A stretch of DNA of 64,000 nucleotides, from NCBI GenBank assembly GCA_019752045.1, contig JAIEMP010000007.1:124001-188000 (forward strand), read 5' to 3'. Below are positions 17,321-58,262 of this stretch, in pieces. Position 1 is the stretch's first letter; every line of letters begins with the position of its first letter. Below the pieces are notes generated by a model. The model searched no databases, was not told where the DNA came from, and worked only from the letters and a program-made list of their open reading frames with translations. The DNA is from Chitinophagaceae bacterium. Lineage in GTDB: Bacteria > Bacteroidota > Bacteroidia > Chitinophagales > Chitinophagaceae. The translations under genes and the position numbers were made by a program.

Positions 17321-17391
17321 AATTGGCCCTTAGTTAATAAGGATTTCGCTATTTGAAAATCGAATTTATGAAATAATTTTATTTTATAGAC

Positions 17392-17399: not shown

Positions 17400-17488
17400 A
17401 TTAATTTTTTTATTTACTTATAAATTATCTCCCTTTTCTCTTTAAAAGCGGCTATATTCGGATCATACTTTTAAACAGATTACAATTC

Positions 17489-29911: not shown

Positions 29912-30394
29912 ATGAAAGAAATCTTAATCGGCAAATTATTAGAGTATATCAGGGATAATAACCCGGATATACTTTTTGCACTGGAGGCAGAAGATAAATT
30001 GCGTTTATGGCTTTACTCAAAAGCTGACAGTGTGGAATCTCGTTGGCAACAAATGGAAGCGGGAAAACAACCTGCTTACATAATCGAAGAAACCTGTTTG
30101 AATGAATTAACAAGAGAACTCAGACCATCCCGTTACAACTACATTTCCAATCTTCTTGAACAGGAATTTGAAAAAGATTATAAAATGCTTGTGAAAGCAG
30201 GATTGTTACAGCATGAAGTGGTGAACATGATTGGCTATTGCGACTCAGTATTTGAGGACTTAAAGTTTTCAGAAGAAACCGAGGACAATCGTTTTATCTA
30301 TTATGCCATAAGCGGAGCTATTGGTGAATACTTAGATAGTAACAGTGTGAGAGAAATAGTGAGCAATGAGTTACAACAGTCAGCAGAAACTTAA
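29912..30394 (+). CDS. uncharacterised small protein between traE and the methylase-helicase
   Basis: 160 residues from the ATG at 29912, which lies 11 bases after the traE stop; the frame extends upstream into traE but that part is a shadow. The protein is acidic and helical with no signal or membrane segment. Phrases such as ELRPSRYNYISNLLEQEF and LVKAGLLQHEVVNMI faintly recall DUF1896-type proteins, which accompany methylase-helicase genes in Bacteroidota mobile elements. Its last 29 bases overlap the methylase-helicase start, so the two are translationally coupled and may work together. Confidence 0.65.
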   Translation: MKEILIGKLLEYIRDNNPDILFALEAEDKLRLWLYSKADSVESRWQQMEAGKQPAYIIEETCLNELTRELRPSRYNYISNLLEQEFEKDYKMLVKAGLLQHEVVNMIGYCDSVFEDLKFSEETEDNRFIYYAISGAIGEYLDSNSVREIVSNELQQSAET

Positions 30395-41751: not shown

Positions 41752-42078
41752 TTATAATAGTTGTGGTGAAATATCATTTCTCGTTCCAATTATTTTTGTT
41801 TTCTTTCTTTTCAGTTGTTCCTTTATTATTTCAACTGCATTTGATACAGCCTTCTCAAATGTTTTGCATTGGGAACTTGCAAAAAGGTCGTTACCTGGTA
41901 TAGCCAACCTGATTTCACATAGTTTATTTTCTTTTATGTCTGAATTTTCAAGCCTCAAAGAAATTTCACTTGTAATAATTTCGCCGCAATACCGGGATAG
42001 TTTCTCAACTTTTTCATGTATATAACCCATAAGCTCCAGATTGACTGTAAAGCCGGGAGACTGAATATCTATTTTCAT
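41752..42078 (-). CDS. hpf: HPF/RaiA-like ribosome-associated protein
   Basis: 108 residues from the ATG at 42078; the frame also runs to a TTG at 42096 that is less likely. MKIDIQSPGFTVNLELMGYI followed by KVEKLSRYCGEI and AIPGNDLFASSQCKTFEKAV is the ribosomal hibernation / sigma-54 modulation family, a beta-alpha-beta-beta-beta-alpha fold that sits in the decoding centre and stops translation in starved cells. It is the short form without the C-terminal dimer domain. It follows the universal stress gene after 33 bases, a common pairing in stress islands. Confidence 0.88.
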   Translation of the reverse strand: MKIDIQSPGFTVNLELMGYIHEKVEKLSRYCGEIITSEISLRLENSDIKENKLCEIRLAIPGNDLFASSQCKTFEKAVSNAVEIIKEQLKRKKTKIIGTRNDISPQLL

Positions 42079-42111
42079 TTTCTTTAATTTTTTCAATAAT
42101 AATTTTTTATT

Positions 42112-42954
42112 TTATGCAGGTATTACCAACAGTGGTACTCGTGTATGGTAAGACATTTTCTTTGTAATACTCGGGTTAAAAATACTTTCCACGAAGGTTC
42201 GCTTTTGAGTTACCATTGTCACTATATCAATACCCTGTTCAAGTATGTATTCTTCAATAGTTTCCTGAAACTTATGTCCGCTTAAATGAACAGACCTTAT
42301 GTTGGTATTCTTATAATGGGCTTTTAGCCTTTCTTCACAGGAAGTAATGCTTCTTTTATGCTCCAGATAATCAACAGCTTCGGCAGAATCTATGTCAGTA
42401 AATATGGCAATATGTACTATGGCATTAAACATTGCTGCCAGTTCAAACACTGGGTTAATAATATCAGGTTGCTCTTCAAAATCATTTACCACCAGTAAGA
42501 TTTTTTCAGGGATACCCCATTCACTCAAAAGCGGAACAGCCATTACCGGCACATTTATTTTACCGATAATCCCGGCAGTTTTGCTGCCAAATATTTTTTC
42601 TTTTAGTCTGGACACACCCAGGGTGCCCATTATAATAAGGTCAGCATGATGCTCTTCGGAAGCCTGCAGAATGGTATCAGTTACCTTGCCTTTATACAGC
42701 TTTATACTTACAGAAAGATTTCCAGTGCCTTCAATGTTCTTTTTTAATAATGACAGATTCGCATTTGTTTTTTCAATTATATTTTGGTTATGTTCTTTAT
42801 ACACGTTTTGATGGTCTTTGAAAACAGTGTCAATCAAATCAAAGGCATGTATTAAAATGATTTCTGCCTTTGCCTGTTTGGCAATTTGCACAGCAAAATC
42901 AAGGGCCTTGTTAGCATTAGGGGAGAAATCGGTTGGTACTAATATTTTTTTCAT
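42112..42954 (-). CDS. universal stress protein, two tandem Usp domains
   Basis: 280 residues. The first Usp domain (about 1-140) starts KILVPTDFSPNANKALDFAV and has the ATP-loop motif G-2x-G-9x-G-S in MGTLGVSRLKEKIFGSK. The second (about 148-280) starts KILLVVNDFEEQPDI and has lost the G-rich loop, so only the first is likely to bind ATP. Such proteins are induced by starvation, oxidative and ionic stress. It heads a small operon with hpf. A hairpin and an AT-rich inverted repeat lie in the upstream 222-base gap. Confidence 0.92.
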   Translation of the reverse strand: MKKILVPTDFSPNANKALDFAVQIAKQAKAEIILIHAFDLIDTVFKDHQNVYKEHNQNIIEKTNANLSLLKKNIEGTGNLSVSIKLYKGKVTDTILQASEEHHADLIIMGTLGVSRLKEKIFGSKTAGIIGKINVPVMAVPLLSEWGIPEKILLVVNDFEEQPDIINPVFELAAMFNAIVHIAIFTDIDSAEAVDYLEHKRSITSCEERLKAHYKNTNIRSVHLSGHKFQETIEEYILEQGIDIVTMVTQKRTFVESIFNPSITKKMSYHTRVPLLVIPA

Positions 42955-43734: not shown

Positions 43735-44385
43735 TTACTTAGGGCTGTTAATAATTAAAGTATCATCATAAAAACTTACTTCACCAGTTGTAATATCATG
43801 AGTACCGCCAACAATACCTATTGCACCTGATTCTATCATTTCTTTTAGAATAGGGCTGCGTTCCATAATAGCATGTACTGTTCTTTTAACATTAATAGTT
43901 GCCACTTTTTCTACAAACTCATTGTTGCCTGAGTTTCGATTATCTTCTTCAGTTTTTTCATCATAAACCGCAGGCTGTATTTTGCTTAACAACGCTGTCA
44001 GGTTGCCCATTTCTACATGGTCACAGGCGCCTTTTACTGCACCGCATTTTGTATGGCCCAACACCACTATTATTTTTGAGCCGGCTACTTTGCATCCAAA
44101 CTCCATACTCCCCAGAACGTCTTCATTAATGATATTGCCGGCAATACGAATGCTGAACACATCTCCCAAACCCTGGTCGAAAATCAATTCTGCCGATGTG
44201 CGGGAATCAATACAACTTAAAATGACTGCAAACGGATGTTGCCCATCAGATGTTTCATTGGCCTGTTGCAACAAATTGCGGTTTATTTTAAGGTTATTCA
44301 TAAACCTTTTGTTACCTTCTTTTATTAAGTTCAATGCAATAGAAGGGGTTATGGCTGCCTGCATTTCTTTCGTTAATGTTTTCAT
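43735..44385 (-). CDS. beta-class carbonic anhydrase
   Basis: 216 residues, no signal peptide found. Zinc site residues are all visible: Cys in ILSCIDSRTSAELIFD with its Asp/Arg dyad, and His and Cys in VVLGHTKCGAVKGACD. It interconverts CO2 and bicarbonate, giving the cell bicarbonate for carboxylases. The gene begins 14 bases after the SulP transporter gene, so the two are an operon controlled by the operator at 45994-46033. Coupling of SulP transporters with carbonic anhydrase is well known and suggests bicarbonate uptake or retention. Confidence 0.95.
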   Translation of the reverse strand: MKTLTKEMQAAITPSIALNLIKEGNKRFMNNLKINRNLLQQANETSDGQHPFAVILSCIDSRTSAELIFDQGLGDVFSIRIAGNIINEDVLGSMEFGCKVAGSKIIVVLGHTKCGAVKGACDHVEMGNLTALLSKIQPAVYDEKTEEDNRNSGNNEFVEKVATINVKRTVHAIMERSPILKEMIESGAIGIVGGTHDITTGEVSFYDDTLIINSPK

Positions 44386-44399
44386 TTAATTGTTTTTTG

Positions 44400-45965
44400 T
44401 TAAGTTGATTGCAAATAAGCCGGTTCAGTAAATTTTATTTTCTCAACGGTGATGTTCTTGGTTTTAGCATTTGTCTCATAATCCTTTATTAACTCAAGTA
44501 CATCATAAGCAACTGATTTTGATTTGGAAAAATCAATAATCACTTTTGAATTAGCCGGGATTTCATCCAATTCTTTTATTACATTGGCTTTATTAAAAAA
44601 CGAGACTTCTTCTGCTAAAACAAGGTGATGAACTTCTTGTCCTTCTTCTGTAGTTATGCTTTCTTTCATATGATGAGAGTTACGATAACTATGGCGCAAA
44701 GTGTAAAAGACACCGAAGAGGATGCCAATGGTTATTCCTTTTAATAAATCGGTTGCCAATATACCAACAACAGTTGCGGTAAAGGGTATGAACTGCTCCC
44801 AGCCTAATTTGTACATTCGTTTAAAAAGAGCAGGTTTGGCTAATTTATAACCAACCATAATCAATATTGCAGCTAAGCTGGAGAGCGGAATCATGTTGAG
44901 TACTCCTGCAATGGTAATAGCACTGATTAATAAAAACACTCCATGCAATATGGTCGACATCTTTGTTTTGCCGCCGAATGTAATATTGGCTGTACTACGT
45001 ACAATTACCTGCGTAATGGGCAAACCACCAATCATACCTGAAAGCATATTTCCCAATCCCTGGGCTTTTAACTCCCTGTTAGTTGGTGTAACTCTTTTTT
45101 GTGGATCCATTTTATCGGTAGCTTCAACACAAAGTAGAGTTTCTAAACTGGCAACAATGGCTAATACAATAGCTACTTCCCAAACTTTAAAATTTGTTAT
45201 TGCAGAAAAATCGGGAAAAGTAAAAAAACTGAAAAACTCCGTTAAATTATTTGCTACCGGAAGCCTCACTACCTGATCCTCTGCCAGGCTAAATTTTAAT
45301 ATGCCTGCCTGATACATATAATTCATTACAATGCCAAGAATAACTACAACAATCGGGCCTTGTATCAACTGAAATATTTTATGCTTTTTGATTAATACCT
45401 TATCCCACAAAATCAAGATTGTTATTGCAATGATCGAAATCAATACAGCACCAGGCGTAAGGGTATTAAAGGCATTGGAGATTGATGATAATGTTGTACC
45501 GCCATCAGTTTGAAAGTAAGAAAGATCTCCCTCTGCATCCTTATCATATCCTAATGCGTGTGGTATTTGTTTTAAAATTATCAGTAGCCCTATACCAGTA
45601 AGCATCCCCTTAATAACAGAGGAAGGAAAGAAATAAGCAATAAAACCAGCTTTAGCAAATCCCATAATAAGTTGAATAATACCTGCCAGTACAACGGCTA
45701 ATAGAAAGGCAGACCATGAACCAATTGCTGCGATAGAGGTTAGGACTATCACGGCTAACCCAGCAGCAGGTCCGCTAACTCCCAAAGGAGAACCGCTGCC
45801 AATACCTACTACTATACCACCAACTATACCTGCTATAATACCGGCAAACAATGGTGCACCGGATGCTAAAGCAATACCAAGGCATAGAGGGACTGCAACA
45901 AAAAAAACGACAATGCTTGCGGGGAGGTCGCTTTTAAATTCTTTAAACACGTTTTTTACTTCCAT
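44400..45965 (-). CDS. SulP-family anion (bicarbonate/sulfate) transporter
   Basis: 521 residues. About ten to twelve membrane segments include the SulP blocks VSGPAAGLAVIVLTSI and GLGNMLSGMIGGLPITQVIV with RSTANI. A short STAS-type domain ends the protein (about 430-521, VIIDFSKSKSVAYDVLELIK). SulP proteins move bicarbonate, sulfate or other anions, often with Na+ or H+. The following carbonic anhydrase gene argues for bicarbonate. The first codons (MEVKNVFKEFKSD) are closely copied in a small ORF before carB (54236-54370), and both starts share the same upstream operator layout. Confidence 0.92.
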   Translation of the reverse strand: MEVKNVFKEFKSDLPASIVVFFVAVPLCLGIALASGAPLFAGIIAGIVGGIVVGIGSGSPLGVSGPAAGLAVIVLTSIAAIGSWSAFLLAVVLAGIIQLIMGFAKAGFIAYFFPSSVIKGMLTGIGLLIILKQIPHALGYDKDAEGDLSYFQTDGGTTLSSISNAFNTLTPGAVLISIIAITILILWDKVLIKKHKIFQLIQGPIVVVILGIVMNYMYQAGILKFSLAEDQVVRLPVANNLTEFFSFFTFPDFSAITNFKVWEVAIVLAIVASLETLLCVEATDKMDPQKRVTPTNRELKAQGLGNMLSGMIGGLPITQVIVRSTANITFGGKTKMSTILHGVFLLISAITIAGVLNMIPLSSLAAILIMVGYKLAKPALFKRMYKLGWEQFIPFTATVVGILATDLLKGITIGILFGVFYTLRHSYRNSHHMKESITTEEGQEVHHLVLAEEVSFFNKANVIKELDEIPANSKVIIDFSKSKSVAYDVLELIKDYETNAKTKNITVEKIKFTEPAYLQST

Positions 45966-45993
45966 TATCAGTTGATTTAGGTTCAGGGGAATA

Positions 45994-46033
45994 AAGATAG
46001 TAATTTTATTTTTGAAGATAGTATTACTATCTT
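45994..46033. promoter_or_regulatory. operator A: half site plus 19-bp palindrome before sulP
   Basis: AAGATAGTA at 45994-46002 is followed, start to start 21 bases later, by the perfect palindrome AAGATAGTATTACTATCTT at 46015-46033 (9-base arms, one central base). On the minus strand the half site overlaps TATCTTTA, a near -7 box, 29 bases before the sulP ATG. The same layout with the same 21-base spacing occurs at 54400-54439 next to tetR, so the TetR protein is the likely binder. Confidence 0.75.
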
Positions 46034-46093
46034 ATTGAATTGTAAAATTTCCCTTACCTATGCATATCCTATATATCACTAATCAACCAGGTA

Positions 46094-46117
46094 ATGTCTA
46101 TAGCTGACATTTTTTTT
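46094..46117 (+). terminator. small terminator-like hairpin
   Basis: ATGTC (46094-46098) pairs with GACAT (46106-46110) around 7 bases, followed by seven to eight T residues. On the plus strand it would end a short transcript leaving operator A. No gene is encoded between operator A and this point. Confidence 0.35.
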
Positions 46118-46247
46118 CACCAACAAAACCACCTGTTGCGATTGAAATAGAGTGAGCTATCTTTACAAATTGAAGTAGCGAACGCCACTCGTCAAATAAG
46201 ATGAGAATTTTATGCTATGGCCGTTATAAAATACCGATTTAATAGTA

Positions 46248-47597
46248 TTATTTTTTTGTATGAAATTCTAATCTTTGACCGGGTATAAATTCATTAAACC
46301 GTCCATTGTCATACACTAAATTACCGTTGACAAAAGTGTGTGTTATTTTTGTTTGAAATTGTGTTCCCTCTAATGGTGACCAGCCACACTTGTATAAAAT
46401 ATTATCTTTTCCAACTGTCCAGGATGAGTTTAAGTCAACCAAGGTTAAATCAGCAAAATAGCCCTCACGGATAAATCCTCTTTTTTTAATGCTATAAAGT
46501 GTCGCAACGTTATGACACATTTTTTCGGCAATTTTCTCTAAACTGATAAGTCCTTGCTTATAAAATTCAAGCATAATGTTTAATGAATGCTGAACCATTG
46601 GCGCTCCTGACATTGATTGAAAATAGGGCCTCTGCTTTTCTTCCAACGTATGCGGTGCATGGTCGGTTGTTACAATATCAATCCTGTCGTCAAGCAATGC
46701 CTGTAAAAGTCCTTTTCTATCTTCTTCTGTTTTGATGGCAGGGTTCCACTTTATCAGAGATCCTAATCGCTCATAATCTTTGTTAGAAAACCAGAGATGA
46801 TGAACAGAAACCTCTGTTGTAATTTTCTTTTCTTCTAAAGGGATATTGTTTTGAAACAAATGCGTTTCTGCTTCAGTAGATAAATGCAGAATGTGTAATC
46901 GTGCATTATATTTTATAGCAAACTGTATTGCTCTTTCAGTGGCCTGATAACACGCTTCTTCGCTGCGAATTAAAGGATGAAATTCAATTGGTACATTTTC
47001 ACCATATTTTGTTCTGTAAATTTTCTCGTTTTCCTCAATTATTTGTTCTTTTTCAGAATGAATTGCAATAATGGATTTACAACTTGAAAAAAGTTTTGCC
47101 ATAGTATCAGGATTGTCAGCAAGCAAATTTCCTTTACCTGTAAAATAAAGTCCATCGTCTGAAACACCTATAAATTGAGAAGTGTCCATTTTAACCACTT
47201 CGTTAATGTTGCTTCCGTTCACGCCTAATAAGAAAGAATAATTCGTCCAGGATTTTTCTGCTGCAATACTGAACTTGCCGTTTAGGATTTCCGCTGTCAA
47301 TACATTGGGAATTGTGTTGGGCATATCAATAAAAGAAGTTACTCCACCTGCAACAGCAGCTTTGCTTTCGGTGTGCATGTCACCTTTGTGGGTTAGTCCG
47401 GGTTCACGAAAATGGACTTGTGCATCAATAAGACCAGGGAAGAGATGTTTACCCGTTCCGTCAATAGTTTTATAATTTGCATCTGCAGGAAAATTGCCGA
47501 TACGGGAAATGAAACCATCTTCAATTAAAACATCAGCAACAATGCTTTTTCCTTCGTTGATTATATTGGCGTTTCTGATGAGTATTGGCACTTTCAT
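46248..47597 (-). CDS. pyrC: dihydroorotase-like amidohydrolase (class I)
   Basis: 449 residues. The family blocks are present: LFPGLIDAQVHFREPGLTHK (first metal site, with Gln-x-His instead of His-x-His, as I recall for other Bacteroidota enzymes), IAIHSEKEQI, LHILHLSTEAET and VTTDHAPHTLEEK with the catalytic Asp. At the position where many relatives have the carboxylated Lys (KIFMGSS) the protein has VSDDGLYFTG, closer to Bacillus/Aquifex-type enzymes. It would close carbamoyl-aspartate to dihydroorotate; another cyclic amide is possible. It overlaps the metallophosphoesterase stop by 4 bases. No aspartate carbamoyltransferase gene is in the block. Confidence 0.8.
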   Translation of the reverse strand: MKVPILIRNANIINEGKSIVADVLIEDGFISRIGNFPADANYKTIDGTGKHLFPGLIDAQVHFREPGLTHKGDMHTESKAAVAGGVTSFIDMPNTIPNVLTAEILNGKFSIAAEKSWTNYSFLLGVNGSNINEVVKMDTSQFIGVSDDGLYFTGKGNLLADNPDTMAKLFSSCKSIIAIHSEKEQIIEENEKIYRTKYGENVPIEFHPLIRSEEACYQATERAIQFAIKYNARLHILHLSTEAETHLFQNNIPLEEKKITTEVSVHHLWFSNKDYERLGSLIKWNPAIKTEEDRKGLLQALLDDRIDIVTTDHAPHTLEEKQRPYFQSMSGAPMVQHSLNIMLEFYKQGLISLEKIAEKMCHNVATLYSIKKRGFIREGYFADLTLVDLNSSWTVGKDNILYKCGWSPLEGTQFQTKITHTFVNGNLVYDNGRFNEFIPGQRLEFHTKK

Positions 47598-48355
47598 TTA
47601 ATTTTAATAATTGCATCTTGTTTAAACCATTTATGCTCCTGTTGCTGCACATAACCCAACTGGTTGGTGAGCATAGTAGTATTGCCGATTGTAAATTCAG
47701 GTGTGTTGTTATGATGGTGCCCATATATCCAGTACGCTGCATTAGAGTTGAAGATAAAATCATACAACTCCACCGCAAAAGCTTCGTTTACATTACTGTT
47801 CTTATATTGTTCGGGATAGTTAAAGAATGTGGGCACATGATGTGTTACCACTATATTCGTTTTGGAATCATTATTGTTTAAAGCTGTTTTTAAAAAAGCA
47901 TAGTCAGTTTGATGTAAACTGTTGAATTGTGCTGGAGTAATCCTTTTGCCTTGAATTCTTATCATCGAAAAATCAGAAATACTTTGTTGTATATTCCATT
48001 CGTTTTGCGGACTGATAGAACTCCATAGAGTACAGAAAATAAGATTTACACTTTTGTAAGCAATGATTTGGTTGTTTACCAAAAAAACATTGTGGCGGAT
48101 TTTTTTATACAACGGATTTTTTACATCATTCAAATGGTAATGATAATATTCATGGTTGCCCGGAACCCAAAACACACTTTCGTAATTTGCGGAAACAAAA
48201 TCAAAAAAATCTTTATGCCTGTCTATAAGAGCAAAAGGAATAATATCACCGGCAAGCAATAAAATTTCGCCCGATGGTTGAATCGGATTTTTAACAAGGA
48301 AGTTTTTGTTCCCTCTAAATTCTAAATGTAAATCGGAGCAGTATTGAATTTTCAT
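47594..48355 (-). CDS. calcineurin-like metallophosphoesterase
   Basis: 253 residues, cytoplasmic. All metal motifs are visible: YCSDLHLEF (D-x-H) at residue 5, LAGDIIPF (GD), VPGNHEYYH (GNHE), VVTHHVPT (H) and IYGHHHNN (GHxH). It should be a two-metal phosphoesterase acting on nucleotides, phosphosugars or proteins; the substrate is not evident. The stop TGA shares bases with the dihydroorotase ATG (ATGA), so the genes are translationally coupled. Confidence 0.88.
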   Translation of the reverse strand: MKIQYCSDLHLEFRGNKNFLVKNPIQPSGEILLLAGDIIPFALIDRHKDFFDFVSANYESVFWVPGNHEYYHYHLNDVKNPLYKKIRHNVFLVNNQIIAYKSVNLIFCTLWSSISPQNEWNIQQSISDFSMIRIQGKRITPAQFNSLHQTDYAFLKTALNNNDSKTNIVVTHHVPTFFNYPEQYKNSNVNEAFAVELYDFIFNSNAAYWIYGHHHNNTPEFTIGNTTMLTNQLGYVQQQEHKWFKQDAIIKIK

Positions 48356-48391
48356 ATAACTTTTTAACTGATGCTTTTCCCAGCCGTTCTT

Positions 48392-48622
48392 TTAAATTGC
48401 TATGCCGATACCAACAACAGGAACACGTTTTGCAATAATTCTATCTGATTTTATACTGCCGGGTTGATGCACGGCTTGAAAAAGATTAAGGATAGTTCCA
48501 CCAATATCTCCGGTTACTGATAATATTTTCTGGTTATTTTCTGGAATAATTGGATATTGATTTTTAAATGCAAGAACCCCTGTACCAGTTTGTGGGAATA
48601 TTATTAGTTATGCGAATTTCAT
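48392..48622 (-). pseudogene. possible broken small ORF
   Basis: ATG at 48622 in an A-rich start context reads MKFA, then TAA (48610-48608), then 71 uninterrupted codons starting LIIFPQTGTGVLAFKNQYPI and ending AKRVPVVGIGIAI before TAA at 48394. The amino-acid usage looks protein-like and no other gene covers this 280-base gap. I do not recognise the family. It could be a remnant of a gene lost from the operon or a chance frame. Confidence 0.3.
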
Positions 48623-48635
48623 TTTTTAGCTTGTA

Positions 48636-49496
48636 TCAAGGATTACAGAAATCACAAAATGTTGGATCGCAAAATATTTCTCCATCCGGGTATTGTACTT
48701 CTTTTTTGTGATGACATTTTTTACACTGATAAATATGTTTTAATGTTTGCCTTGTAGGTAATGAGCAATTTTCGCATGGTAAACCCTTTATCCATTCAAC
48801 GATTTCAAATCCGGGCCAACTGCATTCAGGGCATAAACTTGTAATTTTAATGAGAAGATTAATAGCAGCCTTTTCAATCACCTTCATTCTTTTAGGATTA
48901 TATATAGCCCGTAAATCCGTTTCTATTAATGCTTTACCATCTTGTGCAGCAGCGATACTTTTTTTTACAACCTCTTTCAGCATTTTTTCGGATGTGATGC
49001 CTTTGAATAATATCAGGCTATTGTCTCCGGCGGTATTGGGTCTTACAACCATAGCGTGTGAAGGAAAGCCGCATTGGTTAACAAATTTTAGGGCTTCTTT
49101 TACAGATGATACTTCCGAATGACTGTGATTTGTGTCGGTAGAAATTTCCCATCCTGCAATTTCTATATTATTGAGCGTATCTATTAACAATACCAGTTCA
49201 ACATTTGCAGAGACAAAAAAAATAGTAGGATGTGCGCCAAAACTTCCTTCGCTTGCAATTGCAATTGATTCTCCTGTTTCTTCAATCGCTTTCAAAGCTT
49301 TACAACGGGCTGCTTCTAATTGTGTTCCTTTGCGTTCAATTTCACGGGTAAATGTTCCGAATGTATCAGTATCTATAGTATCGAGAAGTTTTAAGTTCAT
49401 ACCTGTTTGAGAAAGAACAGGAAAAATCACCTCCTCTTTTTTGTGCTTTGTTATCAACACGGCAGTTCTGTTTCTAAATATGTCGGAATGTTTCAT
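48636..49496 (-). CDS. DUF6671-like protein with C-terminal zinc ribbons
   Basis: 286 residues, cytoplasmic. The N-terminal domain begins with TAVLITKHKKEEVIFPVLSQ and contains ASEGSFGAHPTIFFV, the pattern I associate with DUF6671. The end carries four Cys pairs (CPEC, CENC, CKKC with flanking His, CDFC), enough for two zinc ribbons of the nucleic-acid or protein-binding kind. Function is unknown. It sits between the biotin carboxylase gene (7 bases upstream) and the metallophosphoesterase, so it is carried as part of the bicarbonate-linked operon. Confidence 0.6.
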   Translation of the reverse strand: MKHSDIFRNRTAVLITKHKKEEVIFPVLSQTGMNLKLLDTIDTDTFGTFTREIERKGTQLEAARCKALKAIEETGESIAIASEGSFGAHPTIFFVSANVELVLLIDTLNNIEIAGWEISTDTNHSHSEVSSVKEALKFVNQCGFPSHAMVVRPNTAGDNSLILFKGITSEKMLKEVVKKSIAAAQDGKALIETDLRAIYNPKRMKVIEKAAINLLIKITSLCPECSWPGFEIVEWIKGLPCENCSLPTRQTLKHIYQCKKCHHKKEVQYPDGEIFCDPTFCDFCNP

Positions 49497-49503
49497 TCTG
49501 CTA

Positions 49504-50838
49504 TCAATATTTAAAATCTTCCATGAACTTCGTTGTAAAATTGCCTTTTCTGAATTGGTCGTTCTCCATCAGTTTAATGTGAAACGGTATGGTTGTTTTT
49601 ACTCCTTCAATAATATATTCGCTCAATGCCCTGTGCATTTTTGTAATTGCTTCTTCTCTGGTTTGAGCTACTGTTATAAGTTTTGCTACCATCGAATCGT
49701 AATTGGGAGGGATAATGTATCCTGAATAAATATGAGAATCCACTCGCACTCCATGTCCGCCAGGAGTGTGCAGATTTATTATTTTTCCGGGAGATGGACG
49801 GAAATTCTGATAAGGATCTTCGGCATTAATCCTGCATTCAATGGCATGGAGTTTTGGAATATAGTTTTTACCCGAAATAGGAACACCTGCTGCAATTTTT
49901 ATTTGTTCTTTTATCAGATCATAATTAATTACTTCTTCGGTTACCGTATGCTCAACCTGAATGCGGGTATTCATTTCCATAAAATAGAAATTACGATATT
50001 TATCAACTAAAAACTCAATTGTACCAACCCCTTCATACTTAATAGCCGTACACGCCTTAACAGCAGCCTCTCCCATTTTTTCCCTAAGTTCATTTGTCAT
50101 AAATGGGGAAGGAGATTCTTCCACCAATTTTTGATGCCTTCTTTGTATAGAGCAGTCTCTTTCAGACATGTGGCAAGCCGTCCCGAATTGATCTCCTGCC
50201 ACCTGAATTTCAATATGGCGAGGCTCTTCAATGTATTTTTCCATATACATTCCATCGTTACCAAAAGACGCCTGTGCTTCAATTTTTGCAGATTCCCATG
50301 CTTTTTGCAATTCACTTTCGTCCCATACAATTCGCATTCCCTTTCCGCCCCCGCCTGCGGTAGCTTTTAATATAACCGGGTAACCGGTTTCTACTGCAAT
50401 TTGTTTTGCTTCATCCATATCCTGTAATAATCCGTCTGATCCGGGGATTACCGGCACCCCTGCTTTTTTCATGGTTTCTTTTGCCGTTATTTTGTCCCCC
50501 ATTTTTCTAATATGTTCAGGTGTTGGACCAATAAACTTTACACCGTGTTGCAAACATATTTCGGCAAACTTTTCGTTTTCTGAAAGGAACCCGTACCCGG
50601 GGTGTATAGCATCGGCATTTGTAATTTCTACGGCAGCCATTATTTGCAGGATATTCAGGTATGAGTCTTTGCTTGGAGGAGGGCCAATACATACTGCTTC
50701 ATCTGCGAATTTTACATGTAAACTGTCCTTATCAGCAGTAGAGTAAAGCGCAACTGTTTTAATATCCATTTCTTTACATGTACGAATTACTCTCAAAGCG
50801 ATCTCGCCACGGTTGGCTATTAATATTTTTTGAAACAT
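49504..50838 (-). CDS. accC: biotin carboxylase subunit (AccC)
   Basis: 444 residues from the ATG at 50838, giving the standard start [14 protein letters not shown]; an ATG at 50844 would add two residues. ATP-grasp features are intact: [33 protein letters not shown], and [18 protein letters not shown]. It carboxylates the biotin of the carrier protein with bicarbonate and ATP. It lies directly after accB. No carboxyltransferase subunit gene (accA/accD or an acyl-CoA type) is in the window, so the acceptor must be supplied elsewhere. Confidence 0.95.
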
Positions 50839-50848
50839 ATCCATATTA

Positions 50849-51349
50849 TTATGCAGGATCAATTAAAAACAACGGGCTATCATATTCAACAGGGCTTGAA
50901 TCATCTATAAGAATTTTTACAATTTTTCCTGACACTTCTGATTCAATTTCGTTGAAGAGTTTCATGGCTTCAATAATGCAGAGGGTTTGTCCCTTCTTTA
51001 CCTCATCTCCTACATTTACAAAAGGCGGTTTGCCCGAACCAGCTGTTCGATAAAAAGTACCAATCATTGTAGCTTTAATTGTGATATAGTTTGATTCATC
51101 CAAATTGCTGTCAGTTTTCTTTTCTACCTGAACCGCTTCTTGTTGAGTTGTAGTTACTGGCATTTGAAAGACCGGAGCCGTTTGCTGCGGCATGTTAATT
51201 TCAGGGGCTTCCATAACCCGTGTTACTTGTGAGGAGGATGGATTTTTAATCGTTATTCGAAAATCCTTTAACTCCAATTCCATTTCACTAATTCCAGATT
51301 TAGCAACAAAGCGGATAAGACTTTGTATCTCGTTTATTTTCATATTCAT
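50849..51349 (-). CDS. accB: biotin carboxyl carrier protein (AccB)
   Basis: 166 residues. An N-terminal helical region ([20 protein letters not shown]), a Pro/Gln-rich linker around residues 40-80, and a C-terminal biotinyl domain with the target lysine in [14 protein letters not shown], near residue 131. The stop codon lies 4-10 bases before the accC start, so expression is coupled. It accepts carboxyl from AccC. Gene order carB-accB-accC places two bicarbonate-fixing activities in one operon. Confidence 0.95.
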
Positions 51350-51385
51350 TTTTTTTTCATAAAAGAATCATGATATACAACTTTA

Positions 51386-54199
51386 TTATTTACTTAGATA
51401 AAGATTTCGTTCGGAATGTATGTTTTGAAAAAAATCATCCTGAAGTGAATCAATAAAATAGATTGCCTCTCCTGTTGATTTCATTTCAGGTCCGAGTTCT
51501 TTATTTATTTCGGGGAATTTATTGTGCGAGAATACCGGGATCTTTATTGCATACCCTTTTTTACGGGGAGAAAATTCAAAGTCTTTTAATCTATTGTGCC
51601 CTAACATTATTTTGGTTGCGTAGTTTACATAAGGCTCATCATAGGCCTTAGCAATAAACGGGACTGTACGGGATGCCCGTGGGTTAGCTTCTATCACGTA
51701 CACTTTCTCATTCTTTATTGCAAACTGAATATTGATCAGGCCAACCGTATTTAGTGCAAGTGCTATTGTACGGGTGTGCAGCTCAATTTGCTGTATTACA
51801 TTTTCGCTCAAATCAAAAGGAGGAAGTACTGCATGCGAATCGCCTGAATGAATGCCGGCAGGTTCAATATGCTCCATTATTCCAATAATATATACATCTT
51901 CTCCGTCGCATATAGCATCCGATTCGGCCTCAATGGCATTTTCCAGAAAATGGTCTATCAAAACCTTATTGCCGGGATAATCCTTTACAACATTTACTAC
52001 ATGTTGCTCTAATTCTTCTTCGTTGATAACAATTTTCATACTTTGTCCACCTAAAACATAGGATGGGCGTACCAAAAGTGGAAAACCAAGTTTCCTAGAT
52101 ATTTCAATTGCTTGTTCGGCATTTTCTGCAACATCAAAATCTGGATATGGAATATTCAGTGTTTTTAGTAAAGAAGAAAATCGTCCACGGTCTTCAGCAA
52201 CATCTAATGCTTCATAGGTTGTGCCAATAATTTTTATACCATTGCGGTGTAGCTTTTCTGCTAATTTAAGCGCTGTTTGCCCCCCCAACTGAACAATCAC
52301 TCCTTCCGGTTTTTCATTTTGAATAATGTCGTAAATATGCTCCCAAAATACCGGTTCAAAATATAGCCGGTCAGCAGTAGTGAAATCGGTCGAAACGGTT
52401 TCAGGATTGCAGTTAATCATAATCGTTTCATAGCCACATTCTTTTGCTGCAAATACACCGTGAACACAGGAGTAGTCAAATTCTATTCCTTGCCCGATAC
52501 GGTTAGGCCCTGAACCAAGCACCACAACTTTTTTCCTATTACTCGATGGGATTGCTTCATTTTCAAACTCAAAAGTTGAATAGAAATAAGGTGTTTTGGC
52601 TTCAAACTCAGCTGAACAGGTATCAATCATTTTATAAACTCTCGTGATACCTAATTCTGTTCTTTTTTTATACACTTCGCTTTCCAAACAATGAAGCAAA
52701 TGGGCGAGCTGCCTATCAGCATAACCTTTTCGTTTGGCATCATATAATAAGTTACGTGGAAGGGTTTCAAGGTTGAAATCTTCTATTTCCCGTTCAAATA
52801 AAACGAGTTCCTCGATCTGGTACAAAAACCAATAATCAATAAGTGTTAACTTGTGTATGGTATTTATTGAAATGCCTAATTTGAATGCATCATAGACATG
52901 GAAAAGCCGGTTCCAACTGGGATTCTCCAGGCTGTAAAGTATATCTTGCTGATTAGTAAGTTCCTTACCATCTGCGCCTAATCCATTGCGTTTTATTTCC
53001 AATGACTGACATGCTTTTTGCAATGCCTCCTGAAAACATCTGCCAATACCCATTACTTCTCCAACAGATTTCATTTGAAAACCAAGACGCCTGTTGGACC
53101 CTTTGAATTTATCAAAGTTCCATCTGGGTATTTTTACGATTACATAATCCAAAGCGGGTTCAAAAAAGGCCGATGTCTTTTCGGTGATTGGGTTTTTCAA
53201 TTCATCCAAATGATAGCCGATAGCAAGTTTTGCAGCAATTTTAGCTATTGGATAGCCGGTAGCTTTACTTGCTAGAGCAGATGAACGGGAAACCCGTGGA
53301 TTAATTTCAATGGCAATGATTTCTTCTGTTGGGCTCACTGCAAACTGTACATTGCACCCACCGGCAAAATTTCCAATGGAACGAATCATCAGGATTGCCA
53401 TGTTACGCATTTTTTGAAACGTAGTATCTGCTAAAGTCATTGCCGGTGCAACTGTAATAGAATCCCCGGTGTGTATACCCATAGGATCAAAATTCTCAAT
53501 TGAACAGATAATTGCTACGTTATCATTACTATCCCGCAATAACTCCAACTCATATTCTTTCCATCCTACAACAGCTTTGTCTATTAATACTTCGTGAATG
53601 GGAGATGCGTGTAAACCTCGTGTTAAACAAGCATCAAAATCTTCTTTTTTATACACCACAGCCCCACCTGTTCCGCCAAGAGTAAATGATGGTCTGATAA
53701 CTAACGGGAACCCAAATTCCTGAGCATTTTCTTTCCCTTCAAGAAAAGACCTGGCAATTTTGGAAGGAGCCATCCCTACACCAATTTCTTCCATTTTTTT
53801 TCGGAACAATTCTCTGTCCTCTGTAACTTTTATTGCCTCTACGTCCACACCTATCATCCTTACGCCATATTTTGCCCAAACACCTGTTTCCTGGCATTTA
53901 ATAGCCAGATTAAGTGCTGTTTGGCCACCCATTGAGGGTAATACAGCATCAATTTTTCTTTCTTCGAGTATTTTTATAATCGATTCTATTGTTAATGGCC
54001 ACAGATAAATATGATCGGCGGTAACTTTATCTGTCATTATAGTAGCCGGATTGGAATTGATGAGTGAAACTTCAATCCCTTCTTCTCTCAATGATCGGGA
54101 TGCTTGTGAGCCCGAATAATCAAACTCGCAGGCCTGTCCAATGATGATTGGCCCGCTACCAATAATGAGAACTGATTTTATGGAAGGATCTTTGGGCAT
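51386..54199 (-). CDS. carB: carbamoyl-phosphate synthase large subunit (CarB)
   Basis: 937 residues. Two ATP-grasp halves are intact: KSVLIIGSGPIIIGQACEFD and later VVVLGSGPNRIGQGIEFDYS, with the metal/nucleotide blocks IIAIEINPRVSRSSALASKA and VYVIEANPRASRTVPFIAKA. It makes carbamoyl phosphate from bicarbonate, ammonia and two ATP. The usual C-terminal allosteric MGS-like domain (about 130 residues) is absent; I believe short CarB proteins of this size are common in Bacteroidota, but cannot verify it here. No carA glutaminase gene lies in the block. First large gene of the operon running leftward from operator B. Confidence 0.95.
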   Translation of the reverse strand: MPKDPSIKSVLIIGSGPIIIGQACEFDYSGSQASRSLREEGIEVSLINSNPATIMTDKVTADHIYLWPLTIESIIKILEERKIDAVLPSMGGQTALNLAIKCQETGVWAKYGVRMIGVDVEAIKVTEDRELFRKKMEEIGVGMAPSKIARSFLEGKENAQEFGFPLVIRPSFTLGGTGGAVVYKKEDFDACLTRGLHASPIHEVLIDKAVVGWKEYELELLRDSNDNVAIICSIENFDPMGIHTGDSITVAPAMTLADTTFQKMRNMAILMIRSIGNFAGGCNVQFAVSPTEEIIAIEINPRVSRSSALASKATGYPIAKIAAKLAIGYHLDELKNPITEKTSAFFEPALDYVIVKIPRWNFDKFKGSNRRLGFQMKSVGEVMGIGRCFQEALQKACQSLEIKRNGLGADGKELTNQQDILYSLENPSWNRLFHVYDAFKLGISINTIHKLTLIDYWFLYQIEELVLFEREIEDFNLETLPRNLLYDAKRKGYADRQLAHLLHCLESEVYKKRTELGITRVYKMIDTCSAEFEAKTPYFYSTFEFENEAIPSSNRKKVVVLGSGPNRIGQGIEFDYSCVHGVFAAKECGYETIMINCNPETVSTDFTTADRLYFEPVFWEHIYDIIQNEKPEGVIVQLGGQTALKLAEKLHRNGIKIIGTTYEALDVAEDRGRFSSLLKTLNIPYPDFDVAENAEQAIEISRKLGFPLLVRPSYVLGGQSMKIVINEEELEQHVVNVVKDYPGNKVLIDHFLENAIEAESDAICDGEDVYIIGIMEHIEPAGIHSGDSHAVLPPFDLSENVIQQIELHTRTIALALNTVGLINIQFAIKNEKVYVIEANPRASRTVPFIAKAYDEPYVNYATKIMLGHNRLKDFEFSPRKKGYAIKIPVFSHNKFPEINKELGPEMKSTGEAIYFIDSLQDDFFQNIHSERNLYLSK

Positions 54200-54235
54200 A
54201 ATAAGTTTTTATTTTAAATATTTGTCTTGTGATAC

Positions 54236-54370
54236 TCATTCTTTGATAGTCGTAAAACTGTTAGCCAAGTTGTTGTAATTGAGAACAGGGATAGAATAAA
54301 ACACTACATCTTTAACTTGGAATATCAACGGATCGTTTTTAATTTTTTTAACTATGGTTTTTACATCCAT
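54236..54370 (-). CDS. 44-residue ORF resembling the SulP N-terminus (leader or relic)
   Basis: From ATG 54370 the frame reads MDVKTIVKKIKNDPLIFQVK and ends with TGA at 54236. The first 13 codons parallel the start of sulP (MEVKNVFKEFKSD): M-acidic-V-K, basic and hydrophobic positions, Lys and Asp all correspond. The ATG stands 30 bases from the half site of operator B, as the sulP ATG stands 29 from operator A. After this the two sequences diverge. It may be the relic of a duplicated sulP start or a translated leader before carB. Confidence 0.45.
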   Translation of the reverse strand: MDVKTIVKKIKNDPLIFQVKDVVFYSIPVLNYNNLANSFTTIKE

Positions 54371-54399
54371 TATCAGTTGATTTTAGTTTTTTGCAGACG

Positions 54400-54439
54400 A
54401 AGATAGTAACTTTACTTTATTTAATAGTAATACTATCTT
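54400..54439. promoter_or_regulatory. operator B: half site plus palindrome between carB and tetR
   Basis: AAGATAGTA at 54400-54408 is followed, 21 bases start to start, by TTAATAGTAATACTATCTT at 54421-54439, the same palindrome as operator A with three changes in the left arm. The half site overlaps TATCTTCG, a near -7 box facing carB. On the plus strand a TATTTTTG box for tetR begins 22 bases after the palindrome. The position fits joint control of carB and of tetR itself by the TetR protein. Confidence 0.75.
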
Positions 54440-54461
54440 ATTAAACTGTAAATCTTTTACT

Positions 54462-54469
54462 TATTTTTG
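54462..54469 (+). promoter_or_regulatory. -7 box TATTTTTG for tetR
   Basis: Full TAnnTTTG match, 82 bases before the tetR ATG and 22 bases after operator B, so the operator would cover the -33 region. No TTTG -33 box is visible. Confidence 0.4.
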
Positions 54470-54551
54470 CTGTCTTTAACTTCAGGCATCGACATTTTAT
54501 TCCTGTTGTAAAGCACCAGAAAATATTTAGCACTCAAAGCAAATCAGTTTA

Positions 54552-55226
54552 ATGGAACTACAGTTACAAATAAAAATGAATGAAAAACTGTTTCTCCGTA
54601 ACCCTGAGCGATCGGAGTTAGGCAAGAAAATCATTTTGCACAGCATACAGTTGATTCATAAAAATGGGTTTGAATCTTTCACCTTCAAAAAGCTGGCAGA
54701 AGATATTGGTACTACGGAGGCAGGTATTTACAGGTATTTTGAAAATAAACACCGGTTACTGATATATATTACTGCCTGGTATTGGAGCTGGCTTGAATAC
54801 AGGGTTACAATTCATACCAATAATATAAAAGACCCTGTTGTTAAGCTTAAACGAGTAATCAGGCTACTAGCTACTACAGTAGAAGATGATTTCAAAACCA
54901 GTTATGTTAATGAAAATATCCTTCACCAGATTATTATTGCAGAAGGTACCAAAGCCTATTTAACCAAGCATGTAACTGAGGATAATAAAGACCAACTGTT
55001 TAAACCCTATAAAGACCTTTGTGCTAAAATTGGCGCCATTATTCTGGAATACAATCCCAAGTATAAATTCCCAAAATCACTTTCAAGTACCATTATTGAA
55101 ATGGCGCATTTCCAGAATTTTTTCATGAATAACCTCCCTTCACTGACGGATTTTGGGAAAGATAAAGATGAGTCGAAGATTGTTGTTTTTTTAGAGGATT
55201 TGGTGTTTACCAGTATAAGGAAATGA
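54552..55226 (+). CDS. TetR/AcrR-family transcriptional regulator
   Basis: 224 residues; the starts at 54552 and at codon 9 (MNEKLF) are both possible. The N-terminal DNA-binding domain spans about residues 20-75, with IILHSIQLIHKNGFESFTFK, LAEDIGTTEAGIYRYFENK and HRLLIYI, the TetR helix-turn-helix. The C-terminal ligand domain is helical and unlike well-known effectors. It is divergent from carB, next to operator B, and its probable second target is operator A before sulP. An effector related to CO2, bicarbonate or pH would fit but is speculation. Confidence 0.9.
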   Translation: MELQLQIKMNEKLFLRNPERSELGKKIILHSIQLIHKNGFESFTFKKLAEDIGTTEAGIYRYFENKHRLLIYITAWYWSWLEYRVTIHTNNIKDPVVKLKRVIRLLATTVEDDFKTSYVNENILHQIIIAEGTKAYLTKHVTEDNKDQLFKPYKDLCAKIGAIILEYNPKYKFPKSLSSTIIEMAHFQNFFMNNLPSLTDFGKDKDESKIVVFLEDLVFTSIRK

Positions 55227-55498: not shown

Positions 55499-55834
55499 GT
55501 GAGTAACAGCGTTTATCAAATTAACAAAGGAATTAACAGAAGCATAGAGTTCAAAGGGCTCAAAGCTCAATACATCTGGTACCTGGGCGGCGGCTTAGTA
55601 GTGTTGCTGATACTTTTTGCAATACTCTATATCAGCGGCCTGGGTATCTTCTTTTGTCTGCCGTTCATTGCTGTACTTACGACCGCCTTATTTATGCGTA
55701 TCTATAAACTGAGCCGGACTTACGGCGAATATGGCATGATGAAAAAGATTGCCCGCCGTTCAGTGCCGGATGTGATAAAGAGTTATTCAAAAGTGAAATT
55801 GAAAAAGATGTTGCTGAATGAAAAATCTGAATGA
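55499..55834 (+). CDS. traF: TraF, conjugative transfer protein (DUF4133)
   Basis: 111 residues, start codon GTG at 55499 (an overlapping ATG at 55497 is out of frame and hits TGA at once). YQINKGINRSIEFKGLKAQY followed by two membrane segments (about 30-50 and 55-72) and KLSRTYGEYGMMKKIARRSV is the DUF4133/TraF signature, a VirB3-like membrane protein that works with the TraG ATPase. It overlaps traG by 17 bases. Its usual upstream neighbour traE is at 29574. Confidence 0.92.
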   Translation: MSNSVYQINKGINRSIEFKGLKAQYIWYLGGGLVVLLILFAILYISGLGIFFCLPFIAVLTTALFMRIYKLSRTYGEYGMMKKIARRSVPDVIKSYSKVKLKKMLLNEKSE

Positions 55835-58262
55835 GATACTGCCGGTTTATGCTATTGAAAATAACGCCATCCTTTCCAAAATGGGCGATGTGACAGTTGT
55901 ATTTGATGTGCAATTACCTGAATTGTTTACAATGAGCAATGACGAATACGAAGCCTTTCATCATGCATGGATAAAAGCTATAAAGGTTTTACCAGTGAAT
56001 AGTGTATTGCATAAACAGGATTGGTTCACCGAGGCAAAGTATAAGCCGTCGTTTATTCAGGAAGACAATAGTTTTCTTACCAGAAGCAGCGACCGGTTCT
56101 TTAACGAACGGCCTTATTTAGACCATCGTTGTTATATTATGCTTACAAAAAAACCGGCGAACCGAAAATTGGGTTCTTCCATTTTTAGCAGCCTGCTCCG
56201 CAGAACAATTGTGCCGGAAGAAACGTTGCAGCCAAAACATTTTCATGATTTCATGAATCATGTGGGTCAGTTTCAAAAGATATTATCAGACAGTGGTTTT
56301 GTAACCATGAAAATAATGCCGAATGAATTACTGGCTGATTTCATTCTCCGCTATCTTAATCTTGCCAATGATTCCGGCATTCTACGGGATATAGAATTTA
56401 AACCAGAGTGGAAGATCGGCGAAAACCATTGCCAGCTATATACAATGGCGGATGCAGAATTTGTACCTGCATTATGTGGCTCAAGGATTAACTATGATAA
56501 GTACTCTACCGACAAAACAAAATTCAGTGTTGGCTTTGCTTCACCAATCGGTCAGTTACTTTCCTGCAATCATATCTACAACCAATATGTATTTATTGAG
56601 GATGTACAGAAAACAATGCAGAAGCTGGAAAGTAAAAGACTGCGACTTCAATCGCTTTCTGCGTACAGCAGGGAAAATGCAATCAGCAAACAGGCCACAG
56701 ATGATTTTCTGAATGAAGCCATTAGTGAACAACGGCTTCCGGTTAAAGCTCATTTTAATATTCTGGCATGGACAGACAACAGGGATGAATTAAAAAATAT
56801 CCGCAATCTCTGTTCATCGGCGCTTACGCAAATGGATGCTACACCCAAAATGGAAACCGAAGGTTCGGCGCAAATATTCTGGGCTGGCATTCCGGGTAAT
56901 GCGGCAGACTTTCCAATGAACGACACTTTTGATACTTTCAGCCCACAGGCTTGTTGTTTTTTTAATCTTGAAACAAATTACCGTTCATCTGTTAGTCCTA
57001 TCGGCATACGTTTAGGAGACCGATTGAGCGGCAAACCCATTCATGTGGATATTTCGGATGAACCAATGGATGAAGGTATCTGTACCAATAGAAATAAATT
57101 CATTTTGGGGCCTTCGGGAAGTGGAAAATCTTTTTTTACCAACCACATGGTAAGGAGCTACTACGAAAAAGGCACACATATTGTGCTGGTAGATGTGGGT
57201 CATAGCTATAAGGGGTTGTGTGATATGGTGAATGGATATTATTTCACCTATTCAGAAACCAAGCCCATTAAGTTTAACCCGTTTTATATTGGCGAGGGCG
57301 ATATACTGGATACAGAGAAAAAGGAAAGTATCAAAACATTGTTATTAGCTCTTTGGAAAAAAGATAATGAAACTTTTAACCGCAGCGAATATGTAGCCCT
57401 TTCAAATGCCCTGCAATTATATTTTGAGAAAGTAGAAAACGATAAAGAATTATTTCCCTGCTTTGATAGTTTTTATGAATTTTTGAAAGACGATTTTGTA
57501 GCAGTACTAAAAGGGGATAATGTGAAGGATAAAGACTTTGATGTGTCCAATTTTCTGTATGTGCTGCGGCCATATTACAAAGGCGGTGAGTTTGATTATT
57601 TGTTGAACGCAAAGGAAAACCTGGATTTACTACAGCAGCGGTTTATTGTATTTGAACTGGATAACATCAAAGATCATCCGATTCTGTTCCCCGTTGTAAC
57701 CATCATTATTATGGAAGTTTTTATTTCCAAAATGAGAAAGCTGAAAGGCATTCGCAAAATGATCCTGATTGAAGAAGCATGGAAAGCAATTGCTAAAGAA
57801 GGAATGGCGGAATACATCAAGTATTTATTTAAAACAGTCAGAAAATTCTTTGGTGAAGCTATTGTGGTGACTCAGGAAGTGGAAGATATTATCTCATCGC
57901 CAGTGGTAAAGCAGACAATTATCAATAATAGTGATTGTAAAATACTGTTAGACCAAAGTAAGTATCAAAACAAATTCGACCAGATACAAGAATTGCTTGG
58001 GCTAACAGAAAAAGAAAAGGCCTTGGTTTTATCAATCAACAAGTCCAATGATCCGACAAAAAAATATAAGGAAGTCTTTATTTCTCTTGGTGGGGTATTG
58101 AGCAAAGTTTATCGTACAGAAGTATCGCCGGAAGAGTACCTGGCTTATACAACAGAGGAAAAGGAAAAAGTGAAAGTGCAGGCTTATGCTGCAAAATTTG
58201 GCGGGGATATTGAAAAAGGGATTAAGGCTTTAGCCGACGAGATTATTCACTCCAAAAACTGA
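55818..58262 (+). CDS. traG: TraG, conjugation ATPase (VirB4-like)
   Basis: 814 residues. The N-terminal half is the VirB4/TraG-N region. The ATPase core has Walker A FILGPSGSGKSFFTNHM near residue 433, Walker B region KMILIEEAWKAIAKEGM near residue 650, and EAIVVTQEVEDI (sensor) shortly after. It powers pilus or channel assembly and DNA transfer at the inner membrane. Length and motifs are those of intact TraG of CTnDOT-like elements. Coupled to traF by overlap and followed by a small lipoprotein gene after 4 bases. Confidence 0.95.
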   Translation: MKNLNEILPVYAIENNAILSKMGDVTVVFDVQLPELFTMSNDEYEAFHHAWIKAIKVLPVNSVLHKQDWFTEAKYKPSFIQEDNSFLTRSSDRFFNERPYLDHRCYIMLTKKPANRKLGSSIFSSLLRRTIVPEETLQPKHFHDFMNHVGQFQKILSDSGFVTMKIMPNELLADFILRYLNLANDSGILRDIEFKPEWKIGENHCQLYTMADAEFVPALCGSRINYDKYSTDKTKFSVGFASPIGQLLSCNHIYNQYVFIEDVQKTMQKLESKRLRLQSLSAYSRENAISKQATDDFLNEAISEQRLPVKAHFNILAWTDNRDELKNIRNLCSSALTQMDATPKMETEGSAQIFWAGIPGNAADFPMNDTFDTFSPQACCFFNLETNYRSSVSPIGIRLGDRLSGKPIHVDISDEPMDEGICTNRNKFILGPSGSGKSFFTNHMVRSYYEKGTHIVLVDVGHSYKGLCDMVNGYYFTYSETKPIKFNPFYIGEGDILDTEKKESIKTLLLALWKKDNETFNRSEYVALSNALQLYFEKVENDKELFPCFDSFYEFLKDDFVAVLKGDNVKDKDFDVSNFLYVLRPYYKGGEFDYLLNAKENLDLLQQRFIVFELDNIKDHPILFPVVTIIIMEVFISKMRKLKGIRKMILIEEAWKAIAKEGMAEYIKYLFKTVRKFFGEAIVVTQEVEDIISSPVVKQTIINNSDCKILLDQSKYQNKFDQIQELLGLTEKEKALVLSINKSNDPTKKYKEVFISLGGVLSKVYRTEVSPEEYLAYTTEEKEKVKVQAYAAKFGGDIEKGIKALADEIIHSKN

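Follow-up and report, generated by a model that had tools for sequence, protein, structure and literature searches.

Heterotrophic bacteria need bicarbonate for the synthesis of lipids, nucleotides and arginine, and carbonic anhydrase supports their growth in air; in the systems described, carbonic anhydrase together with a transporter (DAB or SbtA) feeds these anabolic carboxylations (PMC9894237, in excerpt). A second precedent is the Zur regulon, in which the scarcity of one cofactor, zinc, brings out regulated substitute paralogs that include PyrC and carbonic anhydrase (PMC2770081, in excerpt). The locus considered here lies in a 64,000-nucleotide stretch of a Chitinophagaceae genome (contig JAIEMP010000007.1, positions 124,001 to 188,000; hereafter the window), and all coordinates are positions within it. 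There, a carbonic anhydrase and a SulP transporter are grouped with biotin carboxylase (AccC), its carrier protein (AccB), CarB, a dihydroorotase (PyrC) and a DUF6671 protein beside a divergent TetR-family regulator. We think it quite probable that this block is a mobile, TetR-switched island for survival at low CO2, that is, at low bicarbonate.

The bicarbonate genes named in a first-pass annotation of the sequence are all present and match curated families; the DUF6671 gene, a metallophosphoesterase gene and a tsaC remnant, which it had overlooked, belong to the same row. Curated cut-offs are passed by every gene that the annotation named except that for SulP, which passes Pfam and falls below the NCBIfam model cut-offs. 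The features are given below, where L052 and L053 are related loci in metagenome-assembled genomes (MAGs) of Flavobacteriales and Bacteroidia, respectively.

43735..44385, reverse strand: beta-class carbonic anhydrase, supply (Pfam PF00484, NF011765)
44400..45965, reverse strand: SulP transporter, supply (Pfam PF00916; far under the BicA model cut-off)
45994..46033: predicted operator of the sulP-carbonic anhydrase unit (half site AAGATAGTAAT at 45994-46004; 19-bp palindrome at 46015-46033)
46248..47597, reverse strand: dihydroorotase PyrC, with SDDG replacing the carboxylysine motif (PRK09236, NF006688)
47594..48355, reverse strand: metallophosphoesterase (Pfam PF00149; collinear in L052, 85%)
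48395..48592, reverse strand: C-terminal remnant of tsaC, 66 residues (58% by tblastn across these residues; at this place the tsaC of L052 is complete)
48636..49496, reverse strand: DUF6671 protein (Pfam PF20376, 1e-72, 244.9 bits against a cut-off of 23.8)
49504..50862, reverse strand: biotin carboxylase AccC (TIGR00514; motif MNTRIQVEH present)
50849..51349, reverse strand: biotin carboxyl carrier protein AccB (TIGR00531; EAMK present)
51386..54199, reverse strand: CarB, a single undivided gene (NF003671, TIGR01369)
54400..54439: predicted operator between carB and tetR (half site AAGATAGTAAC at 54400-54410; palindrome at 54425-54437)
54552..55226, forward strand: TetR-family regulator, divergent (Pfam PF00440; 71% relative at the corresponding place in L053)

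The MNTRIQVEH motif of AccC takes part in bicarbonate binding. As the annotation had remarked, the carA and carboxyltransferase partners are missing: the block proteins scanned gave no match to them. At E 1e-3 the window holds no remnants of PurK, PurE, BioA or BioD and no match to DabA (PF10070) or DabB, and scans with Rfam (gathering thresholds) and for tRNAs gave no matches. The SulP protein may take up bicarbonate; its gene adjoins that of the carbonic anhydrase both here and in locus L009. SulP, carbonic anhydrase, SbtA and DAB all occur in CO2-concentrating mechanisms, which would suit an accessory block for autotrophic carbon fixation. That explanation is extremely improbable, given that no RuBisCO or carboxysome match was found among the block and adjoining cargo proteins scanned, the remaining genome lying outside the search.

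Supply and use share a common operator. The palindrome TAGTAATACTATC occupies 54425-54437 in the gap between carB and tetR and, on both strands, 46017-46031 ahead of sulP, and each palindrome has the half site AAGATAGTAA[CT] at lower coordinates. The exact pattern TAGTANTACTATC occurs at two places in the 4.16 Mb genome, both within the block, and the reversed control pattern is absent from the same genome search. The earlier description of supply and use as one regulated block is borne out to this extent: a palindromic operator common to carB and sulP stands before both and nowhere else in the genome. It is the predicted binding site of the TetR protein. In L053, palindrome and half site again form a pair, between tetR and an operon of bestrophin and carbonic anhydrase; the paired pattern was found in three of 203 loci, two of which are copies of this block. 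Similar operator cores precede the TetR genes of L111 and of L183, the latter a control stretch without DUF6671, and the operator type therefore appears to go with this group of TetR proteins, beyond bicarbonate modules alone. Co-occurrence of regulator and module, which the annotation had proposed to look for, held in part: among nine relatives of the TetR protein in the loci collected, those of L053, L111, L126/L166 (a single locus) and L181 lie near DUF6671, and those of L014 and L183 do not.

The host keeps its own carB, as two separate half-genes about 7 kb apart, as well as a second accC (contig C13, 76%) and a second, lysine-type pyrC (contig C2). The carB, accC and pyrC of the block are therefore extra copies. 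It had been proposed that sole copies of accB, accC, carB and pyrC would mark ordinary housekeeping genes; carB, accC and pyrC at least are duplicated. In 13 of the 14 genus genomes the native carB gave separate matches for its two halves; the exception, G009, yielded the C half alone. Three other genera of the family also show split carB, each in a single genome, and a NodU-like carbamoyltransferase, recognised by eye, lies between the native halves in the window's own genome (C2:165000-183000, L006).

Among the 13 other genomes of the genus, one (G012, another species) carries the block DUF6671 at near identity. The two genomes are 98.07% identical to each other over 16,390 bases at the block, whereas their host genes are less alike (accC 92.3%, pyrC 90.6-92.5%, native carB halves 89-91%). 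The block thus appears to have been transferred or exchanged between species recently, since its identity exceeds the 89-92.5% of the host genes. Because the gene order recurs in the Flavobacteriales MAG and a near-identical copy exists in a second species, the grouping is unlikely to be due to chance.

The Flavobacteriales locus, L052, holds a fuller relative of the block (DUF6671 82%, CarB 92%). Its order, purK-purE-carB-bioA-accB-accC-DUF6671-tsaC-metallophosphoesterase-pyrC-bioD, is collinear with that of the window, carB-accB-accC-DUF6671-(tsaC remnant)-metallophosphoesterase-pyrC, for which reason the window block looks like a trimmed form of a fuller, L052-like module. Bicarbonate is a substrate of PurK, CarB, AccC and TsaC, and CO2 is one of BioD. 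The accC of L052 is itself apparently frameshifted; the genome that holds it (G783) has further copies of CarB and AccC, with one PurK and one TsaC found in a MAG that may be incomplete. A fragment resembling a second DUF6671 N-terminus precedes carB in this locus (4010-4099). In L053, the 71% TetR relative is divergent from genes for bestrophin, carbonic anhydrase (85%), purC, DUF6671 (77%), tsaC and purE.

The bicarbonate theme recurs around DUF6671 in other bacteria and with other bicarbonate enzymes. In a Syntrophaceae MAG (L124, 6756-18265), phosphoenolpyruvate (PEP) carboxylase, PurK and PurE directly precede DUF6671, and PurC, a hexapeptide protein, a carboxyltransferase and a biotin carboxylase follow it. 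DabA and DabB stand beside DUF6671 in L016, L018, L020, L021, L169 and L172, and DabA in L151. DUF6671 occurs in 12 plasmid records, and the seven read hold DabAB (four), IlvD (three), SbtA (two, one by tblastn), PyrC (two) and carbonic anhydrase (one); plasmids that combine DUF6671 with DabAB, SbtA, carbonic anhydrase, PyrC or IlvD belong to phyla other than Bacteroidota. One of them, from Pseudomonas hygromyciniae (L017, 833-14834), carries the row CysD, NhaR, RaiA, TerC, DUF6671, PyrC, IlvD, TsaC, a MurF fragment and SbtA, and is a proteobacterial parallel with a different set of enzymes linked to CO2 or carboxylysine. No near DNA match to the block was found among 72,556 plasmid records. 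A single plasmid relative of the TetR protein turned up, in Hymenobacter, with no module within 12 kb. Second copies of essential enzymes, carried by a mobile element and controlled by a TetR protein, would also suit target duplication, the block then supplying surplus targets where biotin carboxylase or pyrimidine synthesis is inhibited. Such resistance cargo is highly improbable, as it leaves the carbonic anhydrase, SulP, SbtA, DAB, PurK, TsaC and BioD of the related clusters unaccounted for.

DUF6671 is the marker that joins these loci. Of 396 genomes of the order, 41 gave a match to it (six of these matches partial), against none of 14 control genomes, and a scan of a genome collection covered the best 80 of at least 578 relatives. 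For comparison of neighbours, 40 Bacteroidota neighbourhoods were assembled from 31 of the 41 order-level matches and nine from a sample of the phylum, excluding the window's own place; the order-level matches left out were G000, G005 and G026 (taken otherwise), G235 (at a contig start) and the six partial ones. The controls were 19 stretches from contigs of 14 genomes also holding DUF6671. SbtA, DabA, SulP or carbonic anhydrase lay near DUF6671 in 20 of the 40 neighbourhoods and in none of the 19 controls (Fisher 5e-5), and PyrC or TsaC in 17 of 40 against none (Fisher 3e-4), for families chosen after the first loci had been seen. Other matches in the control stretches were a 45% TetR relative, a 33% isocitrate dehydrogenase-like protein, a weak universal stress protein and MurF. 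When 133 loci (one entered twice) were clustered without the chosen families, the largest recurrent clusters, DUF6671 itself apart, were LysR with 36 members, isocitrate dehydrogenase with 32, SbtA with 31, a group of ABC-type ATPases with 24 (and four more in controls), TsaC and a 95-residue protein with 22 each, and PyrC with 18, of which three differ in kind from the block's PyrC. The isocitrate dehydrogenase, LysR regulator and 95-residue protein recur beside DUF6671 in Bacteroidota (L142-L181, L102-L131). DUF6671 is also present in Alkaliphilus, Evansella and Alkalibacterium (L087, L089, L095, L103, L125), with no recognised CO2-linked neighbour; these genera are alkaliphiles.

No paper naming DUF6671 was found in the literature searched. 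Its structural model (predicted local distance difference test score 93) resembles the ITPase/HAM1/YjjX fold weakly in a Foldseek comparison (best E 1.7e-4, template modelling score 0.28 by query), and its C-terminal part carries eight invariant cysteines. One guess, on account of the weakly matched ITPase/YjjX-like part and the cysteine-bearing C-terminal part, is that DUF6671 may be a nucleotide-binding regulator.

The dihydroorotase suits a bicarbonate block as well. Lys102 of the E. coli enzyme is carboxylated, the carboxyl group being derived from CO2, and bridges two zincs (PMC3880350, in excerpt); in the block enzyme the lysine is replaced. In the group's housekeeping dihydroorotases the motif is [CA]G[IVL]K[IV]FMG, whose lysine is at the carboxylysine position. 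In a tree of 44 rows, tagged by the motif itself and all carrying one form or the other, 19 rows (18 distinct genes; 15, the window's among them, adjoin DUF6671) read [ST]DDG, and the lysine is retained in 25, including the host copy. All DDG rows fall into a single clade, supported at 1.000. Dropped from the tree were the L053 protein (28%, hydantoinase-like and not PyrC), L007 (the window gene) and two cyanobacterial sequences, L085, which retains the lysine, and L100, which ends before the motif. A survey of 39 relatives found the DDG form in six of eight genomes with DUF6671 against none of 29 read without it (Fisher 1e-5). Of the 31 genomes without DUF6671, one PyrC match was read in each of those 29, with the lysine motif in 28 and neither motif in G036; outside the 29, G037 gave a fragment lacking the motif region and G034 no match. 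Both forms are present in G006, G009, G012, G026 and G000, and G008 has DUF6671 and the lysine form alone. In G005, rated 100% complete at 2.4 Mb, the DDG form (L026, G005:C6:12316-13638) is the sole close PyrC match, type II enzymes being outside the search, which suggests that the DDG dihydroorotase is active. The block PyrC may also be CO2-independent.

A TDDG motif is found in Aquifex as well, in an alignment of a relative of the block PyrC with the 3d6n and 1xrf sequences. In the type I enzyme of Aquifex aeolicus, Asp153 lies close to the carboxylysine position and one zinc is bound (PMC3880350, in excerpt). Unlike that enzyme, the block PyrC is 47-56% identical to full-length lysine-type enzymes of Bacteroidota, and for this reason it probably reached the DDG motif independently.

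The dihydroorotase also bears on the idea of a metal-sparing island, in which paralogs of zinc enzymes would be expressed under zinc shortage in the manner of a Zur regulon. The PyrC and carbonic anhydrase paralogs of such regulons speak for it, as do the TerC and cation ATPase genes nearby. However, AccC, CarB, PurK, TsaC and PEP carboxylase are not known to depend on zinc, and the block PyrC kind keeps two histidine motifs, [QH]VHFR (19/19) and [AVT][TS]DHAPH (19/19), with two other His motifs outside the comparison; the Q that replaces the first His is also present in 25/25 lysine-type rows. Further, the block carbonic anhydrase is of the beta class, against gamma-class Zur paralogs (PMC2770081, in excerpt). 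The regulator is a TetR protein, and no COG0523 (CobW) match was found among ten block-region proteins scanned, no search for Zur sites having been made. Taken together, zinc sparing is very unlikely.

The surroundings of the block bear on the claim that it lies inside a conjugative element. The claim holds on the TetR side, the one side mapped, where Tra genes adjoin: DUF4133 begins at 55499 and TraG (TIGR03783) at 55818, with TraJ and TraM beyond (TIGR03782 and TIGR03779 also matched). The flanking features are as follows.

36372..37130, reverse strand: TerC-family membrane protein (Pfam PF03741; also in L052, 83%, and beside DUF6671 on several plasmids)
37651..40245, reverse strand: P-type cation ATPase (Pfam), accessory cargo whose tie to the block is uncertain
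40361..41041, reverse strand: DUF2490 protein (others of this type are present in L052, L053 and L142)
41752..42096, reverse strand: HPF/RaiA-type ribosome hibernation protein, accessory (Pfam PF02482)
42112..42954, reverse strand: universal stress protein, Usp, accessory (Pfam PF00582)
55499..58262, forward strand: conjugative transposon genes, DUF4133 and TraG ATPase (PF13571, PF19044, TIGR03783)

HPF, Usp and TerC adjoin the block, and RaiA, Usp or TerC stand beside DUF6671 on some plasmids, so the whole could be a general stress or dormancy island (HPF, Usp, TerC, ATPase) that picked up housekeeping genes by accident. We consider this unlikely: the enzyme set tilts towards bicarbonate, CO2 and carboxylysine steps and does so in several phyla, and the operator pattern is limited to the supply and enzyme operons. 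Elsewhere in the window, a 1831-residue helicase with an Eco57I-type methylase match, preceded by a DUF1896 gene (30366-35861), probably serves functions of the element, and a polysaccharide-use locus (SusD, TonB receptor, GH92, GHL10, ROK) occupies 127-18718.

For the low-CO2 survival island, the following scheme can be proposed from the gene content. The TetR protein would keep both operons, that of the enzymes and that of supply, repressed by way of a shared operator, and a fall in bicarbonate (in air or at high pH), or a signal of CO2 shortage, would release it and derepress both. SulP would then bring in bicarbonate and carbonic anhydrase would equilibrate it with CO2, raising the internal bicarbonate level. 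The extra CarB, AccB and AccC would increase the capacity of bicarbonate-consuming steps that fail under scarcity, CarB by pairing with the host CarA and AccBC with the host AccAD, and the DDG PyrC would free pyrimidine synthesis from the carboxylysine, made with CO2, on which the host enzyme seems to depend. The benefit would be growth at low CO2 or high pH, with DUF6671 in a possible regulatory part.

Several observations weigh against this scheme. SulP proteins transport several anions. The TetR and its operator are not confined to bicarbonate modules, as the L183 control holds the 45% TetR relative and a similar operator, and the 19 controls were drawn from just 14 genomes. In Bacteroidota the commonest neighbours of DUF6671 are isocitrate dehydrogenase and LysR, which are not bicarbonate users. 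Clear CO2-linked neighbours are present in only two (L085 and L100, with PyrC and IlvD) of the 50 loci among the best 80 relatives that are cyanobacterial by record title, weak 26-31% matches in L058, L067 and L099 not being counted, and in two of seven Firmicutes loci (L078 IlvD, L096 SbtA). No connection with CO2 is evident for TerC, the P-type ATPase, HPF or Usp, and no copy of the operator accompanies them. Finally, the lysine is retained by the class II PyrC proteins beside DUF6671 in L017 and L019, and CDK by the IlvD copies seen; carboxylysine loss as a general rule was rejected on these grounds. IlvD and Mur ligases use carboxylysine; the literature search found no paper on carboxylysine in IlvD.

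If the proposal is right, CO2 or bicarbonate is limiting enough in heterotrophs to select a transferable response kit, as zinc and iron are. The CO2 dependence of carboxylysine enzymes in vivo would become testable through two natural forms of PyrC in one host, and DUF6671 would gain its first functional lead.

Among the titles listed in the literature search, none describes a mobile locus that puts bicarbonate supply and CO2-dependent enzymes under joint regulation. The parts are known; their combination as a mobile supply and consumption set with an altered dihydroorotase did not appear in the literature searched. Like the supply systems of other heterotrophs, the block joins carbonic anhydrase to a transporter. 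To our knowledge, those carbonic anhydrase, DAB and SbtA systems supply bicarbonate only, whereas the block also duplicates the consuming enzymes, has an altered PyrC and sits on a mobile element. With the CTnDOT-type conjugative transposons of Bacteroidetes it shares TraG, TraJ, TraM and DUF4133, and it differs in its cargo, a bicarbonate module, of which we know no other case on such transposons. From the Zur regulon it differs in that the scarce item would be CO2 or bicarbonate and the regulator is TetR instead of Zur; most block enzymes are not known to be zinc-dependent. Whether the likeness extends to a whole class we regard as evenly balanced: mobile islands marked by DUF6671 may equip heterotrophs for CO2 starvation as the counterpart of zinc-sparing regulons, combining uptake and hydration of inorganic carbon, replacement AccBC, CarB, PurK/PurE, TsaC, BioD, PyrC, IlvD and PEP carboxylase, a carboxylysine-free dihydroorotase and a dedicated TetR switch.

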